The translations under genes were made by a program, and so were the position numbers. A stretch of 46,494 bases of DNA from Ruminococcus sp. (lineage in GTDB: Bacteria; Bacillota; Clostridia; Oscillospirales; Ruminococcaceae): NCBI GenBank assembly GCA_017471405.1, contig JAFUTK010000001.1, positions 1-46,494 on the forward strand, written 5' to 3'. This document shows positions 29,764-42,302 of the stretch, one piece after another. The notes beneath the pieces are model-generated. The model did not search any database. It was not told the origin of the DNA and saw only the letters and a list, made by a program, of their open reading frames with translations. How positions within the stretch are numbered: position 1 is the stretch's first letter; each line of letters begins with the position of its first letter.

Positions 29764-29873
29764 ATATTTCAAGACTGAACAGGCGATGAGCAATTCATGT
29801 AGCCGGGCTTTAGGGCAGCAGAGACACATCTGCGGGACAGCAAACATAAAAGCTGTCCTGCGGGTGTTTTTTA
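29764..29873 (+). ncRNA. NiCo (czcD) riboswitch with intrinsic terminator
   Basis: The leader between the promoter and the CDF gene carries ACTGAACAGGCGATGAG, GTAGCCGGGCTTTAGGGCAG and GCGGGACAGC in that order, the conserved blocks I recall for NiCo riboswitches, which bind Co2+ and Ni2+ in a four-way junction. The last block pairs with GCTGTCCTGC (29852-29861) and is followed by a run of T (29867-29872), a terminator. Metal binding stabilises the junction and frees the RNA from terminating in known members. The position, directly before a cation diffusion facilitator, is the canonical one. Matched from memory, not by covariance search. Confidence 0.88.
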
Positions 29874-34616: not shown

Positions 34617-35309
34617 ATGGACAAGGAGATAATCATTTCGGCAAAGGGGCTCACCAAGACCTTCGGCTCGGGAGACAGCAGGGTAACCGCCGTCAATGAC
34701 GTTTCACTGGAGGTCTACAAGGGCGAGATAGTCGCCGTCACCGGCGAGAGCGGCAGCGGCAAGAGCACTCTTCTCAACCTGCTGGGAGGGCTTGACAAGC
34801 CCGACAGCGGCACCGTCACCGTTGACGGCAGAGAGCTCACCGCCTTAAAGGACCACCAGCTTGCCGCCTACCGCCGCAGGTATTCCGGCTTTGTGTTTCA
34901 GTTTTACAATCTGATACCCGTCCTCAACGTGGAGGAAAACCTTACCCTCCCTCTCGATCTAGACGGCAGGGATACGGATAAGTCCCGGCTTGACGAGCTG
35001 CTGCAGCTGCTGGGGCTCTCGGACAGGCGATATAATCTGCCCGCGCAGCTTTCGGGCGGTCAGCAGCAGAGAGCCGCAATTGGTAGGGCAGTTATTGCCC
35101 AGCCACCCTGCATCTTCGCAGACGAGCCCACCGGCAACCTCGACACCGCCAACAGCCGCGAGATAGTCGACCTCTTCAAGCAGCTGGCGGCAAAGTATGG
35201 CACCACCGTTATACTCGTCACTCACGACGGCACCGTTGCCGCCGAGGCTGACCGCGTAATCACAATGCGGGACGGCTCTGTTGTCTCGGAGAAGGTGAGG
35301 AGCATATGA
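34617..35309 (+). CDS. ABC transporter ATP-binding protein, LolD/MacB type, regulated by the two-component system
   Basis: 230 residues. Walker A is GESGSGKST, signature LSGGQQQR, Walker B IFADEPTGNLD and switch His VTHD. It matches LolD/BceA-type ATPases, including [18 protein letters not shown]. The ATG at 34617 follows AAAGGAG by 8 bp; the GTG at 34608 overlaps that site. The stop overlaps the permease start by 4 bp, so the two form one transporter. It is 42% or so like the ATPase at 3125 by eye, the same family but not a duplicate. Confidence 0.93.
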   Translation: MDKEIIISAKGLTKTFGSGDSRVTAVNDVSLEVYKGEIVAVTGESGSGKSTLLNLLGGLDKPDSGTVTVDGRELTALKDHQLAAYRRRYSGFVFQFYNLIPVLNVEENLTLPLDLDGRDTDKSRLDELLQLLGLSDRRYNLPAQLSGGQQQRAAIGRAVIAQPPCIFADEPTGNLDTANSREIVDLFKQLAAKYGTTVILVTHDGTVAAEADRVITMRDGSVVSEKVRSI

Positions 35310-38248
35310 CAAAGCTGCTTACCATAACCCTCCGCTGGATGCGCCGGGACAAGGGCAGAACTCTGCTCTCGTTTATTTCCATTGTGGTGGCTATGTACCT
35401 GCTGACCTTTCTGGGGATATATTTCAGCTCCTTCGTTTCGCTTTCCCGTGCCAACTGTATGTATAGCGAGGGGAGCGCCCACGCGGTCATAGATATAAAA
35501 ACCGCGGAGCAGGGCGAGCAACTCACCCGCAGCAGCTCCGTTTCGGAGGGGGCGTATGCCATCACCTCCCGGGGGCTGTTCTACAAGGATTATATTAAAA
35601 AAGTCGCGGACGGGGAAATGACGAACAAGCTCCCCCGCATATATTTCAACGGCACCGCCTTAGACGAGATAAACGATACCACCTACAGCGCCTCCATAGT
35701 CTCGGGAGATGTTCCGACTCTTAGCAGCGCCGAAGAAAACGGAGTGAGCGGGCGCCTCCCCCAAAAGGATACCGAGATAGCCGTCCACCCCAGTATAGCC
35801 GACCTTTACGGACTTAAACTAGGAGGAAAGCTGACTATCCGCTATGAGATACTGTCTTGCAGCCCGGAATACACCCTGCAAATATCCTCCTTTGAGGAAA
35901 CTGTCGATGAATACGGCAGATATTCTCAGATCATTGATGAGGACAGCACCTACTGGGAGAATGCCGACGAAAACGGCGAGCCGGTATTTGTCCCGGACGA
36001 TAAGGGCCTGATGGATAAGCAGTTTTCGGATAACTATTATCCGCACACTGACGGCGGCGAGCTGGTGGAGTACTTTGATACCTACAGCATCAATAATTTC
36101 CTGCACGAGCTGATAGGCGGTGTGTACTCCTACGGAGAGTATGAGGACGGCGTGCAGCGTGAATATCAGCTGCGGGCAGATATCGGCGAGCCTGTCTATT
36201 CTATCGAAAAGACCTACGATATAGTCGGCTTCACCGACGGCTTTGAGCTTTGCTTCTCCCCGCAGGACGAGTGGGCAAGGCCTATGATGACAGGAGAGAG
36301 TGAAGAAGCCGCCTGCTATGTCCGCATAAAGGAAGGGCTGGATATCGACGCCGAGGTCAAACACCTCTGCGAGCTGGCGGGCATACCAATGGAGGAGATA
36401 CTCCCCAAGGGAACTGTAGTTGAACACGTTCAGCAGAACGATGACCTCATCTTGCTTGAGGGCAGGGATTTCTCAAAATTCAGCGAGGCTGCGCTGATGT
36501 TCGGTGCGATGATAATCATAGTGCTGGTGTTCGTGTTCTTTGCAAGGCTCATTGTCAACAATGCCTTTGAGCTTTCCGCCGCCTACCGTCTGGAGCAGTA
36601 CGGTGCGCTGAAAACTATAGGCGCCTCTAACCGTCAGGTGTTCGTGATGGTTATGACAGAGTGTCTGCTGTATATGCTCACAGCCCTGCCGGTAGCAGCT
36701 GCCCTCGCCTTCGTCACAGGCAGGCTCATAATGAACGGCATAATGGATATCAAGATATTCGATATGCGGTACGGCCCCGGCGTCAGCGATAAGTTCTTCA
36801 CACTTGAAATTATTCCCGCCATATTCATCTCAGCCATTGCTGTTGCGGTGTTTTCGGTGGTGATGTCCGCCTACGCCTGCGCCATCAGGATAAAGAAGCT
36901 TTCGCCCATTGCCGCCGCCTCGGGAAAGGGCAGGAGAGCCCGTCCCCGCCGCAGAGCGTGGATATCAAAGCGCATCTTCGGCTTTCCCATAGGCTACGCC
37001 TTCAGAAGCATGGGCAGGAACAAAATGCGTATGGCAATAACCCTCCTTGCCGCTGTGATGAGCGGCACCCTTGTGGTCTCCGTTATCTCAATGCTTTACG
37101 GCATCGAGAAAAACGCCGTATTCAAGCCGGAGGACGCCTATGACGTGGAGGTGATGGTCACCGATGTCAATTCTGTCGACAGCAATCCCAATATCTCCAA
37201 CGAGTATCAGCACCTGCTGGATACCGGGCTTTTCACACTTGTGGAGCCCGAAATTTACGCCGGAAGTACCTTCTGGAAGCCCGACGGCGGCGTTACCGAC
37301 AGCCTCCGCGCCTCTCTCACAGAGGAGTATCAGGAGCTCTATTCCCGCCGCGAGGCTTTGCTGGACGCTCTTATCTTCCAAATCTTCCCGGTGTCCCGCT
37401 CACAGTTTGAAAAGCTGCTGGACAGCGATATGAGCTATGACGAGCTGCTGTCCTCAGGCGGAGTGCTGCTTTGCGACACCGTATGGGGGGACGCAAAATC
37501 CACAGATATCAAGGCCTTCCGTGAGGGCATCACCTCCGTCGCCGTTCTCGTCGTATCTGAGGACGGATATACCGATAGGACTGTCCCCGTCGCCGGGCGG
37601 TACACCTCCTCGGACGTTCGCTTTGTTTGCAGCGTGAGGTCTGTAAAAGCCATCGTCCCCATAGAGAACGCCGGTGCGCTTTTTGATGAGCTGGATCTCG
37701 GCTTCAACACCGACCCTCCCCGCATACAGTTCGGTATGAACATCAGGGAGGAGGACATCGCCGAGGTTGCGGAGTACCTCCAGAATAACTACCATGATTA
37801 TCAGTACTGGATAAACATAGGCGAGACTATAACCGCTAAGCGCATCAATCAGGCGCTGCGCATCGCCGGGATAGCTCTGGCTGCGGTGATATTCACTGCC
37901 GCCCTTGTAAACCTCGTCTCCACCACTGCGGCTAACGCCGTCAACCGCCGCAAGGAGCTGTCTATGCTCCGCGCCTGCGGAATGTCGCTGCGACAGATAG
38001 CAGTGTCACTGCTGTTTGAGTGTGTGCTCTTTGCAGCCGTCACAGCGGCGGTAAGTAGCCTGCTGGGAAGAAAGCTGGCAGACTTCCTGTTTATGCTCCT
38101 GAGCGATTCCCTCATTCCCGCCCTGCCATGGTACGCCCCTGCCCTCATAGGCGGAGCGGTGCTGGTGCTGATGCTTGCTTCCTACCTGCTGCCCCTGCGG
38201 CTTGCCGTAAGGCAGCCCATCTCTCAGGAGATAAGAGCCAAGGAATAA
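35306..38248 (+). CDS. large FtsX/MacB-type ABC permease
   Basis: 980 residues in two similar halves. Each has an N-terminal helix, a large outside domain and three helices of the FtsX fold. First half: helix about 20-40, outside domain to about 390, helices near 395, 450 and 510. Second half: helix about 575-600 (NKMRMAITLLAAVMSGTLVV), outside domain to about 850, helices near 855, 905 and 945. This eight-helix plan differs from BceB (ten helices, about 650 residues). Such pumps export or sense peptides or lipids. The gene starts in the ATPase stop codon and is followed by a terminator. Confidence 0.92.
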   Translation: MTKLLTITLRWMRRDKGRTLLSFISIVVAMYLLTFLGIYFSSFVSLSRANCMYSEGSAHAVIDIKTAEQGEQLTRSSSVSEGAYAITSRGLFYKDYIKKVADGEMTNKLPRIYFNGTALDEINDTTYSASIVSGDVPTLSSAEENGVSGRLPQKDTEIAVHPSIADLYGLKLGGKLTIRYEILSCSPEYTLQISSFEETVDEYGRYSQIIDEDSTYWENADENGEPVFVPDDKGLMDKQFSDNYYPHTDGGELVEYFDTYSINNFLHELIGGVYSYGEYEDGVQREYQLRADIGEPVYSIEKTYDIVGFTDGFELCFSPQDEWARPMMTGESEEAACYVRIKEGLDIDAEVKHLCELAGIPMEEILPKGTVVEHVQQNDDLILLEGRDFSKFSEAALMFGAMIIIVLVFVFFARLIVNNAFELSAAYRLEQYGALKTIGASNRQVFVMVMTECLLYMLTALPVAAALAFVTGRLIMNGIMDIKIFDMRYGPGVSDKFFTLEIIPAIFISAIAVAVFSVVMSAYACAIRIKKLSPIAAASGKGRRARPRRRAWISKRIFGFPIGYAFRSMGRNKMRMAITLLAAVMSGTLVVSVISMLYGIEKNAVFKPEDAYDVEVMVTDVNSVDSNPNISNEYQHLLDTGLFTLVEPEIYAGSTFWKPDGGVTDSLRASLTEEYQELYSRREALLDALIFQIFPVSRSQFEKLLDSDMSYDELLSSGGVLLCDTVWGDAKSTDIKAFREGITSVAVLVVSEDGYTDRTVPVAGRYTSSDVRFVCSVRSVKAIVPIENAGALFDELDLGFNTDPPRIQFGMNIREEDIAEVAEYLQNNYHDYQYWINIGETITAKRINQALRIAGIALAAVIFTAALVNLVSTTAANAVNRRKELSMLRACGMSLRQIAVSLLFECVLFAAVTAAVSSLLGRKLADFLFMLLSDSLIPALPWYAPALIGGAVLVLMLASYLLPLRLAVRQPISQEIRAKE

Positions 38249-40883: not shown

Positions 40884-41162
40884 TTACTTGTTTACAGCGT
40901 CCTTGAGAGCCTTGCCTGCCTTGAATGCAGGAACATCCTTAGCCTCAACGTGAACGGGCTTCTTGGTTGCAGGATTGATAGCATCCTTGGCAGCTCTGTG
41001 TCTAACCTCAAATGTACCAAAGCCTACGAGAGAAACCTTATCGCCATTTACAAGTGCCTCTGTGATGGAGTCTACAACAGCAGCAAGAGCCTTTTCAGCC
41101 TCTTTCTTGGTGCTGTATCCGCCCTTTGCAGCAACAGCTGCTACGAGTTCTGCCTTAGTCAT
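40884..41162 (-). CDS. HU-family DNA-binding protein
   Basis: 92 residues, full-length HU/IHF family. MTKAELVAAVAAKGGYSTKKEAEKAL opens, GDKVSLVGFGTFEVRHRAA forms the saddle and INPATKKPV is the DNA-bending arm. It is the first gene of a two-gene unit with the H1-like protein. GGAGG sits 8 bp before the ATG and the promoter is a perfect consensus, as expected for an abundant nucleoid protein. Confidence 0.97.
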   Translation of the reverse strand: MTKAELVAAVAAKGGYSTKKEAEKALAAVVDSITEALVNGDKVSLVGFGTFEVRHRAAKDAINPATKKPVHVEAKDVPAFKAGKALKDAVNK

Positions 41163-41195
41163 GGTAAATTACCTCCAATAAAATTTTCTGCTTGT

Positions 41196-41224
41196 ATTAT
41201 AGCCTATTTTACGCGCTTTGTCAA
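41196..41224 (-). promoter_or_regulatory. consensus promoter of the HU gene
   Basis: Minus strand TTGACA (41224-41219), 17 bp, TATAAT (41201-41196). Confidence 0.9.
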
Positions 41225-41494
41225 ATGCAAACCCCGATTTTTCAGCGTTTTTTCTGATATTTGTAGAAATACATAAATTTCCCGAGGGGCTCATAGAGAA
41301 TTTTTGTATTTTATTAACACAATATTTCCCTGCTTTTTGAGGAGTTTCAGGGGTACGGTTTTCCAAAAATGCATAAAAGCGCGGGTTTGCAGACCTGATA
41401 AGTATAGTTTCCGGGAGGCGAAAATAACTGTGTTCACCTTTTGTTCACGGGTTTGACAGTACTTTCCGCATTATGAAATTAACATTCATATTTT

Positions 41495-41548
41495 TTCACA
41501 CAGCTTTCATTTTCGCTTTAGGTTAAATTAAGGCAGGAGGGGTATACT
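41495..41548 (+). promoter_or_regulatory. Pho-box-like promoter (four 11-bp-spaced repeats and a -10)
   Basis: TTCACA (41495), TTCATT (41506), TTTAGG (41517) and TTAAGG (41528) are each exactly 11 bp apart. TATACT (41543-41548) starts 9 bp after the last repeat. Firmicutes PhoP promoters have four TT(A/C/T)ACA-like repeats with 5-bp gaps at this place and no -35. Two more copies (TTCACC 41433, TTCACG 41444), also 11 bp apart, lie further up. Confidence 0.6.
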
Positions 41549-41554
41549 TAAGAC

Positions 41555-41650
41555 ATAGCAAGAGAAAAATAAACAAGACTTCATAATTCTTTTCCTTCCT
41601 TAAATAAACCGACCGGCTTCGGGAGTGCCACTCGGAGCCGGTCGGTTTTT
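41555..41650 (+). ncRNA. candidate PhoP-regulated small RNA, about 96 nt
   Basis: The segment between the Pho-box-like promoter and a strong terminator has no ATG. Its only open part is AT-rich followed by TTCTTTTCCTTCCTT (41587-41601), which is complementary to Shine-Dalgarno sequences, as in C-rich seeds of Firmicutes trans-acting RNAs. The 3' end is a 12-bp hairpin with a T run. Expression and size are inferred. Confidence 0.5.
41607..41650 (+). terminator. terminator of the candidate small RNA
   Basis: AACCGACCGGCT and AGCCGGTCGGTT pair over 12 bp with an inner GAGTG/CACTC pairing, followed by TTT. Confidence 0.82.
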
Positions 41651-41677
41651 GCGCCGCCTGCGCGGCGGGGGAGGGAC

Positions 41678-41719
41678 GGAAAAGCACACCCTCCCCCTGC
41701 GGGGAGGGCGTACTTTTCC
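41678..41719. repeat. GGAAAAG/CTTTTCC palindromic hairpin
   Basis: Stem GGAAAAG-CCCTCCCC-CTGC-GGGGAGGG-CTTTTCC with short mismatches. It resembles the hairpins at 23000 and 44411 in having A-rich outer arms and a CCCCC/GGGGG core. Confidence 0.5.
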
Positions 41720-41733
41720 TGAGAATAATAATT

Positions 41734-41773
41734 ACCGGCCTCGGGAGTGTCACCCGGAGCCGGTCGGTTTTTT
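41734..41773 (+). terminator. second copy of the terminator at 41607
   Basis: ACCGGC and GCCGGT pair around CTCGGGAGTG-like sequence, and TTTTTT follows. About 35 of 40 bases match the first copy. It overlaps the stop codon of the convergent gene. Confidence 0.6.
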
Positions 41774-42302
41774 ACTGCTTTTTCTTTATCTGCTCCTCCG
41801 GGGGCTTAGTGGGGTCAACTACCTTGTTGAACTCATCGTCCCGGGAGATCTTAACTATGTTATATACCGAGGATACCATCAGGAAGAACAGCAGCATTGC
41901 TCCCACGAAGGACATTATGATAAACACCGTTCCCTTGTCCAGCAGGTCGTCCACTGCCTTGGCTGCCTCAACTGCGTCCTCGTAGCCGCGAAAGACGAAA
42001 ATGTACCTCATAGCTAGCAGGTCTGCGACAGCTGCGAATACGATGACTGCCGTTCGGGCTATGGAAACTATCTTCCCGTTGGAGCGGAAGCAGAGAATGC
42101 TCAGCACCGACGACCCCACGCACAGGAACAGATACACAATAAAAGTGTAGGTCCAGCGGCGGCAGGCGGAAAGGAACTGCTCCTCTGTCATCACAGCAGG
42201 GGAGTCCACCAATCTTATAAAGGAAATGAGGAATACCATCCCCGCAAAAAACGTAACTATCAGAACTATTCTGAAAAAAATATTGAAGCCGCGGCTTTTC
42301 AT
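41772..42302 (-). CDS. four-helix membrane protein of unknown function
   Basis: 176 residues. Helices about 8-28, 51-72, 78-99 and 123-147. The loop after helix 1 is acidic, and the C-terminus is a charged cytoplasmic tail with EEQIKKKQ. No motif is recognised. The ATG at 42302 (MKSRGF) follows GGGAGG; the in-frame ATG at 42320 lies in front of that site. It has its own promoter, divergent from the mutase gene, and ends at a terminator-like repeat. It may be a regulator of its neighbour or unrelated. Confidence 0.83.
   Translation of the reverse strand: MKSRGFNIFFRIVLIVTFFAGMVFLISFIRLVDSPAVMTEEQFLSACRRWTYTFIVYLFLCVGSSVLSILCFRSNGKIVSIARTAVIVFAAVADLLAMRYIFVFRGYEDAVEAAKAVDDLLDKGTVFIIMSFVGAMLLFFLMVSSVYNIVKISRDDEFNKVVDPTKPPEEQIKKKQ

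Follow-up and report, generated by a model that had tools for sequence, protein, structure and literature searches.

A candidate csRNA-like small RNA gene in Ruminococcus shares its predicted promoter with a VTC-linked two-component regulon

The window, a 46,494-nucleotide stretch of the genome of a rumen Ruminococcus sp. (assembly GCA_017471405.1, contig JAFUTK010000001.1), carries the features listed in Table 1 between a gene for an HU-type DNA-binding protein and a gene of a family without a name. The HU promoter faces away from the intervening segment and the next gene converges on it, ending at 41772, so that the segment forms a free-standing unit. Between the terminator of this unit and the converging gene lie a GC-rich inverted repeat (41689-41708) and a second hairpin (41734-41772), which matches the terminator's 3′ portion at 92% identity; pieces of the inverted-repeat region recur elsewhere in the genome. 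Farther away in the window, a NiCo riboswitch aptamer (RF02683, 49.6 bits) was found at 29764-29842 (+), a response-regulator-like start (MQKILITEDDD) opens a gene from 32751 onward (+) whose promoter score of 0.4 places it outside the regulon described below, and a long ABC-permease-like gene lies downstream of that start at 35306-38248 (+). Identical stretches occur on separate contigs of the genome of the window (G000:C36/G000:C68 and G000:C60/G000:C84), perhaps reflecting assembly redundancy.

Table 1. Features of the free-standing segment and its flanking genes (window coordinates)
Feature	Position	Strand	Basis
HU-type DNA-binding protein gene, outside the unit	40884..41162	-	Pfam PF00216; own promoter 41196-41224 facing away, 12/12 match
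Predicted half-sites TTCACA (41495), TTCATT (41506), TTTAGG (41517), TTAAGG (41528)	41495..41533	+	11-bp steps; same layout at 43 aligned genus sites
-10 element TATACT	41543..41548	+	9 bp beyond the fourth box
Predicted small RNA, about 96 nt	41555..41650	+	start on A after C 41554, the C before the start being favoured in the 43-site consensus; recurrence in relatives
CAU, possible anti-start-codon	41582..41584	+	recurs 5′ of the seed in relatives
Pyrimidine stretch TTCTTTTCCTTCCTT, possible anti-Shine-Dalgarno seed	41587..41601	+	kept in 7 genus copies
Intrinsic terminator, 18-bp stem then T5	41606..41650	+	fold: stem 41606-41648, T at 41646-41650
Converging gene, family without a name, end of the free segment	41772..42320	-	no Pfam match

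The four TTnAnn hexamers and the TATACT element stand exactly where an initial annotation, made from the sequence, had placed them, and the window holds a single arrangement of four TTnA motifs at 11-bp steps, where 100 shuffles gave an expectation of 0.00. A sigma-70-type scan of the + strand from 41160 to 41800 gave no promoter-like pair, in agreement with the proposal of a promoter without a -35 element. In the 43-site consensus and at the promoters of the response regulator (RR) genes described below, the two proximal boxes read TTTAAG-N5-TTTAAG and lie about 10 bp from the -10 element; the proximal pair of the window copy is TTTAGG-N5-TTAAGG.

A 101-nt stretch folded with an energy of -34.9 kcal/mol (z -4.45). 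The predicted terminator hairpin, previously put at 12 bp, is larger than was thought; a simple terminator scan, which allowed loops of at most 8 and asked for a T-rich tail behind the stem, missed it and gave the inverted repeat at 41689-41708 instead. The pyrimidine stretch complementary to the Shine-Dalgarno (SD) sequence is open, as had been suggested, with a mean unpaired probability of 0.76 in the window copy and of 0.40 (G004) to 0.87 across six copies. No sense reading frame of at least 8 aa was present in any of the six complete copies, which agrees with the view of the transcript as an RNA and not as the message of a conserved short peptide. At the Rfam gathering score the window matched only the NiCo riboswitch, with no family covering the RNA, and a loose search with the RNA segment gave nothing close to that score.

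The initial annotation had missed a CAT upstream of the seed, the complement of which reads as an SD-like sequence, a short spacer and ATG. A CAT lies 9-13 nt 5′ of the seed core in five of the six complete copies and also in the 3′ piece of the split copy of G006, hence in six of the seven seed-bearing copies, the exception being G003. With CAU at this distance before the seed core, the RNA would be the complement of a ribosome site including its start codon. The same order could also mean that it is the minus strand that functions, by encoding a short peptide downstream of a hairpin, since the complement has an SD sequence and then ATG in 5/6 complete copies and several of the frames start with MSC or MKS. 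However, these frames vary from 28 aa (G001), 26 aa (G005) and 18 aa (G000) to 5 aa (G004) and none (G003) without any conserved sequence, and the conserved promoter faces the opposite way, which makes a minus-strand peptide very improbable.

We then compared this gap with the related genomes and found that the promoter boxes, the seed and the terminator recur. A DNA search with the segment gave matches in 13/16 genomes of the genus, mostly to the HU leader, while the promoter part was also matched elsewhere; at those places the same promoter precedes proteins in some cases and an RNA sharing the seed in others. The RNA gene was found in 8/16 genomes, and none was found in the other eight among the 61 of 86 promoter-model matches that were read; some of the latter genomes keep the regulon (G009, G011 and G014). 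Six copies are complete (G000, which is the window, G001, G003, G004, G005 and G013), the copy of G006 is interrupted, with one end of it at each of two contig ends next to a repeat, and that of G012 has a different seed, TTTCCTCC. The repeat at the two contig ends (G006:C10 and G006:C58; L019, L023) is also found upstream of the RR gene of G012 (L164:1-90). Seven copies keep the seed, in the form CTTCC(T)TC(C)TTAAA, and the terminator folds strongly in 7/7 copies scored despite differing stem sequences, while the RNA diverges fast outside the promoter and the seed. The RNA lies near the HU gene in five of the eight genomes (G000, G003, G005, G006 and G012) and, by eye, beside an acylphosphatase-like gene in G001, G004 and G013. 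A pattern scan across 84,980 species, each represented by one genome, returned 22 stretches. Five of them have the boxes and come from MAGs, four of Ruminococcus from rumen or reticulum and one of an uncultured Clostridia member; these apparently coincide with the copies of G005, G003, G001, G004 and G013. An exact seed search in 148 genomes of the family matched 14 of them, and among 11 of 16 loci listed only the window was clear; one other match, L028 (G055), has an sRNA-like look.

The promoter was followed through the genus with a model, R1, built from eight promoters, which at E≤1 matched 15/16 genomes (86 matches, 61 of them read). The genes behind it are those for VTC (polyphosphate-polymerase-like), DUF4956, Cthe_2159 and GT2/GtrA proteins (representatives identified by Pfam, relatives by BLAST), together with lipoproteins that have no family or a weak beta-helix match. 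An orthologue of a histidine kinase (E≤1e-40) is present in 13/16 genomes, and in nine of the 16 no more than 40 bp lie between the end of its gene and the R1 match at the following VTC gene; the distance is 865 bp in G004, and G008, G010 and G015 have the kinase with no R1 match behind it. G002 and G007, which have no kinase, gave weak R1 matches only (best E 0.0165 and 5.9e-4), while G013 is an exception, having the sites and the RNA but no kinase match (genome 85% complete). TTTAAG repeats and a -10 element were also seen by eye upstream of the RR genes. When scored with a matrix from the 43 non-RR sites, the upstream regions of 11/11 RR genes tested (those of G012, G013 and G015 being left out) reached 19.2-30.3, against 4.2 for the best region belonging to neither the regulon nor an RR gene, among 353 regions scored in all. 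Taken together, the comparison shows that the predicted promoter of the RNA belongs to a regulon with the VTC-DUF4956 operon, Cthe_2159-type lipoproteins, GT2/GtrA genes and the linked RR gene. Because the RR genes carry the same boxes, as in autoregulation, the linked RR points to itself as the regulator: the four half-sites are the predicted binding sites of this OmpR-type protein, and the linked, autoregulated two-component system is the likely regulator of the RNA.

Bacillus PhoP promoters have four half-sites 11 bp apart and no -35 element, and VTC proteins suggest polyphosphate. The initial annotation had taken the RNA to be a phosphate-starvation RNA under PhoP, a reading with which both the box layout and the VTC genes of the regulon are in keeping, as is a Na/Pi cotransporter-like gene (by eye) adjoining the RR gene in G004. 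The layout itself was described correctly, as four TTnAnn half-sites 11 bp apart ahead of a -10 element, but it is unspecific, as PmrA and CiaR show, and the motif is explained by the linked, autoregulated RR. PhoP control is not supported by the set of genes behind this promoter, which comprises VTC operons, surface lipoproteins and glycosyltransferases as well as the linked RR gene itself. No pst or other phosphate-uptake gene was among the identified genes sharing it (only pstS was sought by family), and pstS (TIGR02136) was not found in 11/16 genomes of the genus, several of them incomplete, which include seven of the eight with the RNA, the window's own genome (64% complete) among them. 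G001 is the sole RNA-bearing genome with a pstS-like match, and by eye there are no such boxes upstream of it. Moreover, the RR fell below every cut-off among the best 25 of 96 NCBIfam families, with RppA scoring best (222 vs 250) and PhoB at 172.6 bits against a cut-off of 296.2, and the linked kinase shows HisKA and HATPase domains only. The PhoP label for the regulator is thus not supported and a PhoP-controlled phosphate-starvation RNA is improbable, while phosphate is possible as the signal of the linked system.

The design of the RNA resembles that of the csRNAs of Streptococcus, which are controlled by CiaRH (PMC3091779, PMC4507080, PMC8186281). In the parts of PMC3091779 and PMC4507080 drawn on here, the CiaR box is TTTAAG-N5-TTTAAG about 10 bp from the -10 element with a preferred C before the start, 53/61 csRNAs carry CAU, and compensating changes have established that comC is controlled through its initiation region. 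The same box and spacing are found in our 43-site consensus and RR promoters, together with the C before the start and a short RNA with a terminator, and an unpaired anti-SD stretch with an anti-start codon is found in 6/7 seed-bearing copies of the genus; this likeness is one of general design, the RNA sequences themselves lying outside the comparison. In contrast to the csRNAs, the two-component system here is VTC-linked, two extra distal TTCAC boxes precede many of the sites, and one copy was found per genome of the genus where streptococci have several. Judged by the recognition helix alone, which is VVWVYISYLRKKL in 10/12 RRs and differs from the VVEVYVSKVRKKL of CiaR at 4/13 positions, the regulator is not CiaR, and the RNA is for this reason not filed as a csRNA despite its csRNA-like design. 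The box by itself does not make a regulator CiaR, since an identical direct repeat is the box of Acinetobacter PmrA, which is bound by an OmpR/PhoB-type regulator; the parts of PMC10927774 drawn on here mention no RNA arm for PmrA. LhrC of Listeria, as described in PMC4132741, is likewise a small RNA of a Gram-positive bacterium under a two-component system (LisRK) with CU-rich motifs that cover the SD sequence, but it has several copies and repeated UCCC motifs in loops, and that paper knew of no consensus LisR box.

We further studied the promoter beyond the genus. R1 matched nine of the 148 genomes of the family at E≤1e-4; in a second, larger set, searched at E≤1e-3, 41/396 genomes from 19/126 genera had a match. 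A script divided the 63 matches outside the genus into 41 that precede a reading frame, which by their N-termini are VTC-like, lipoprotein-like, two RR genes and one GT-like gene, and 22 that do not. Five of the 22 were dropped by eye, three lying before a VTC-type gene (G261:C35b, G283:C7a and G314:C186), one sitting at the edge of its contig, ahead of a start codon (G338), and one having a poor motif (G053), which left 17 candidates in eight genera. At G261:C35:65269-65415 (L287), a tandem pair of regulon promoters precedes one VTC gene. With seven from the genus (G006, running into contig ends, was left out), 24 non-coding candidates were obtained. A terminator-like hairpin was found in 23/24 of them vs 52/200 random windows, and a pyrimidine run of at least 8 with at least 3 C in 19/24 vs 92/600, where the control windows were drawn from coding and intergenic DNA, the candidate genomes are related and not independent, and the matches were chosen by script and by eye. 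The 17 candidates from other genera alone gave 16/17 and 12/17, respectively, and Rfam identified only two tRNAs in 20 loci covering most candidates. CAU followed by TTCC, CCTC or CCCC also recurs outside the genus, for example in G385, G050 and G137.

Possible targets were searched with the pattern AAGGAAGGA-N2-10-ATG in five genomes, which gave 47 matches vs 13 with the reversed pattern; four of these matches fall on the RNA locus, and the target analysis took 46 of the 47, leaving out G006:C58. No target was common to the genomes searched, and orthologous targets in two genomes were only htpG (G001, G005) and an ABC ATPase (G003, G005). The ABC ATPase gene was found in 7/16 genomes, with the ribosome site AAAGGAAGGAT in the five of seven loci that were parsed; it was rejected as proof of a target, as the site is also present in G009, where no RNA was found, and in G012, with its different seed. 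When the RNA body was paired with a generic ribosome site, which was scored for 19 of the 24 candidates, composition-preserving shuffles were clearly beaten (at most 15/300 as good) in only 4/19, and for the window copy 34/300 shuffles were as good. The weak target evidence, the weak shuffle test and the fast divergence of the RNA would also suit a real RNA, under the control of the linked system, that works in another mode, for example by binding a protein, sponging another RNA or pairing through its seed elsewhere in mRNAs. Against this stands the recurrence of CAU and the anti-SD stretch in the same order, within the genus and beyond it, and we regard such a mode as unlikely, though a good deal less so than the PhoP reading.

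Overall, the small-RNA gene, its RR-type promoter, the SD-complementary stretch and the terminator, all kept in relatives, stand from the initial annotation, while PhoP and phosphate starvation do not. On these sequence comparisons, the locus very probably holds a genuine small-RNA gene, regulated and csRNA-like in kind, under a two-component system other than PhoP. Its product is probably a trans-acting csRNA-like RNA of about 96 nt that is switched on by the linked two-component system and blocks translation initiation, the blocking itself being inferred by analogy. When the linked histidine kinase is active, the OmpR-type regulator would bind the boxes in place of a -35 element and switch on the RNA together with the regulon genes. 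The exposed CAU and pyrimidine stretch would then pair with the start codon and SD sequence of some mRNAs and block ribosome binding, as with the streptococcal csRNAs, and an activating regulon would thereby gain a repressing arm.

A literature search, judged by titles and abstract openings, showed among the entries listed no title on a small regulatory RNA from Ruminococcus; nor was a paper found that links VTC to DUF4956, or the polyphosphate-polymerase name to two-component control. The promoter, the likely regulator and the seed are defined well enough for direct testing. If the proposed control is true, an uncharacterised surface module would be tied to post-transcriptional control, and the origin of csRNA-type circuits would gain a second case. 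More tentatively, and with somewhat less than even confidence, we suggest that in several genera of the family, bacteria of gut and rumen, an anti-translation-initiation RNA serves as the standing repressing arm of a two-component system linked to a VTC/Cthe_2159 envelope module, and that this arm arose independently of the CiaRH-csRNA system, converging on the box, the spacing, the C before the start and the CAU with the anti-SD stretch. If this convergence is true, TTTAAG-type OmpR regulators would be repeated recruiters of such RNAs.
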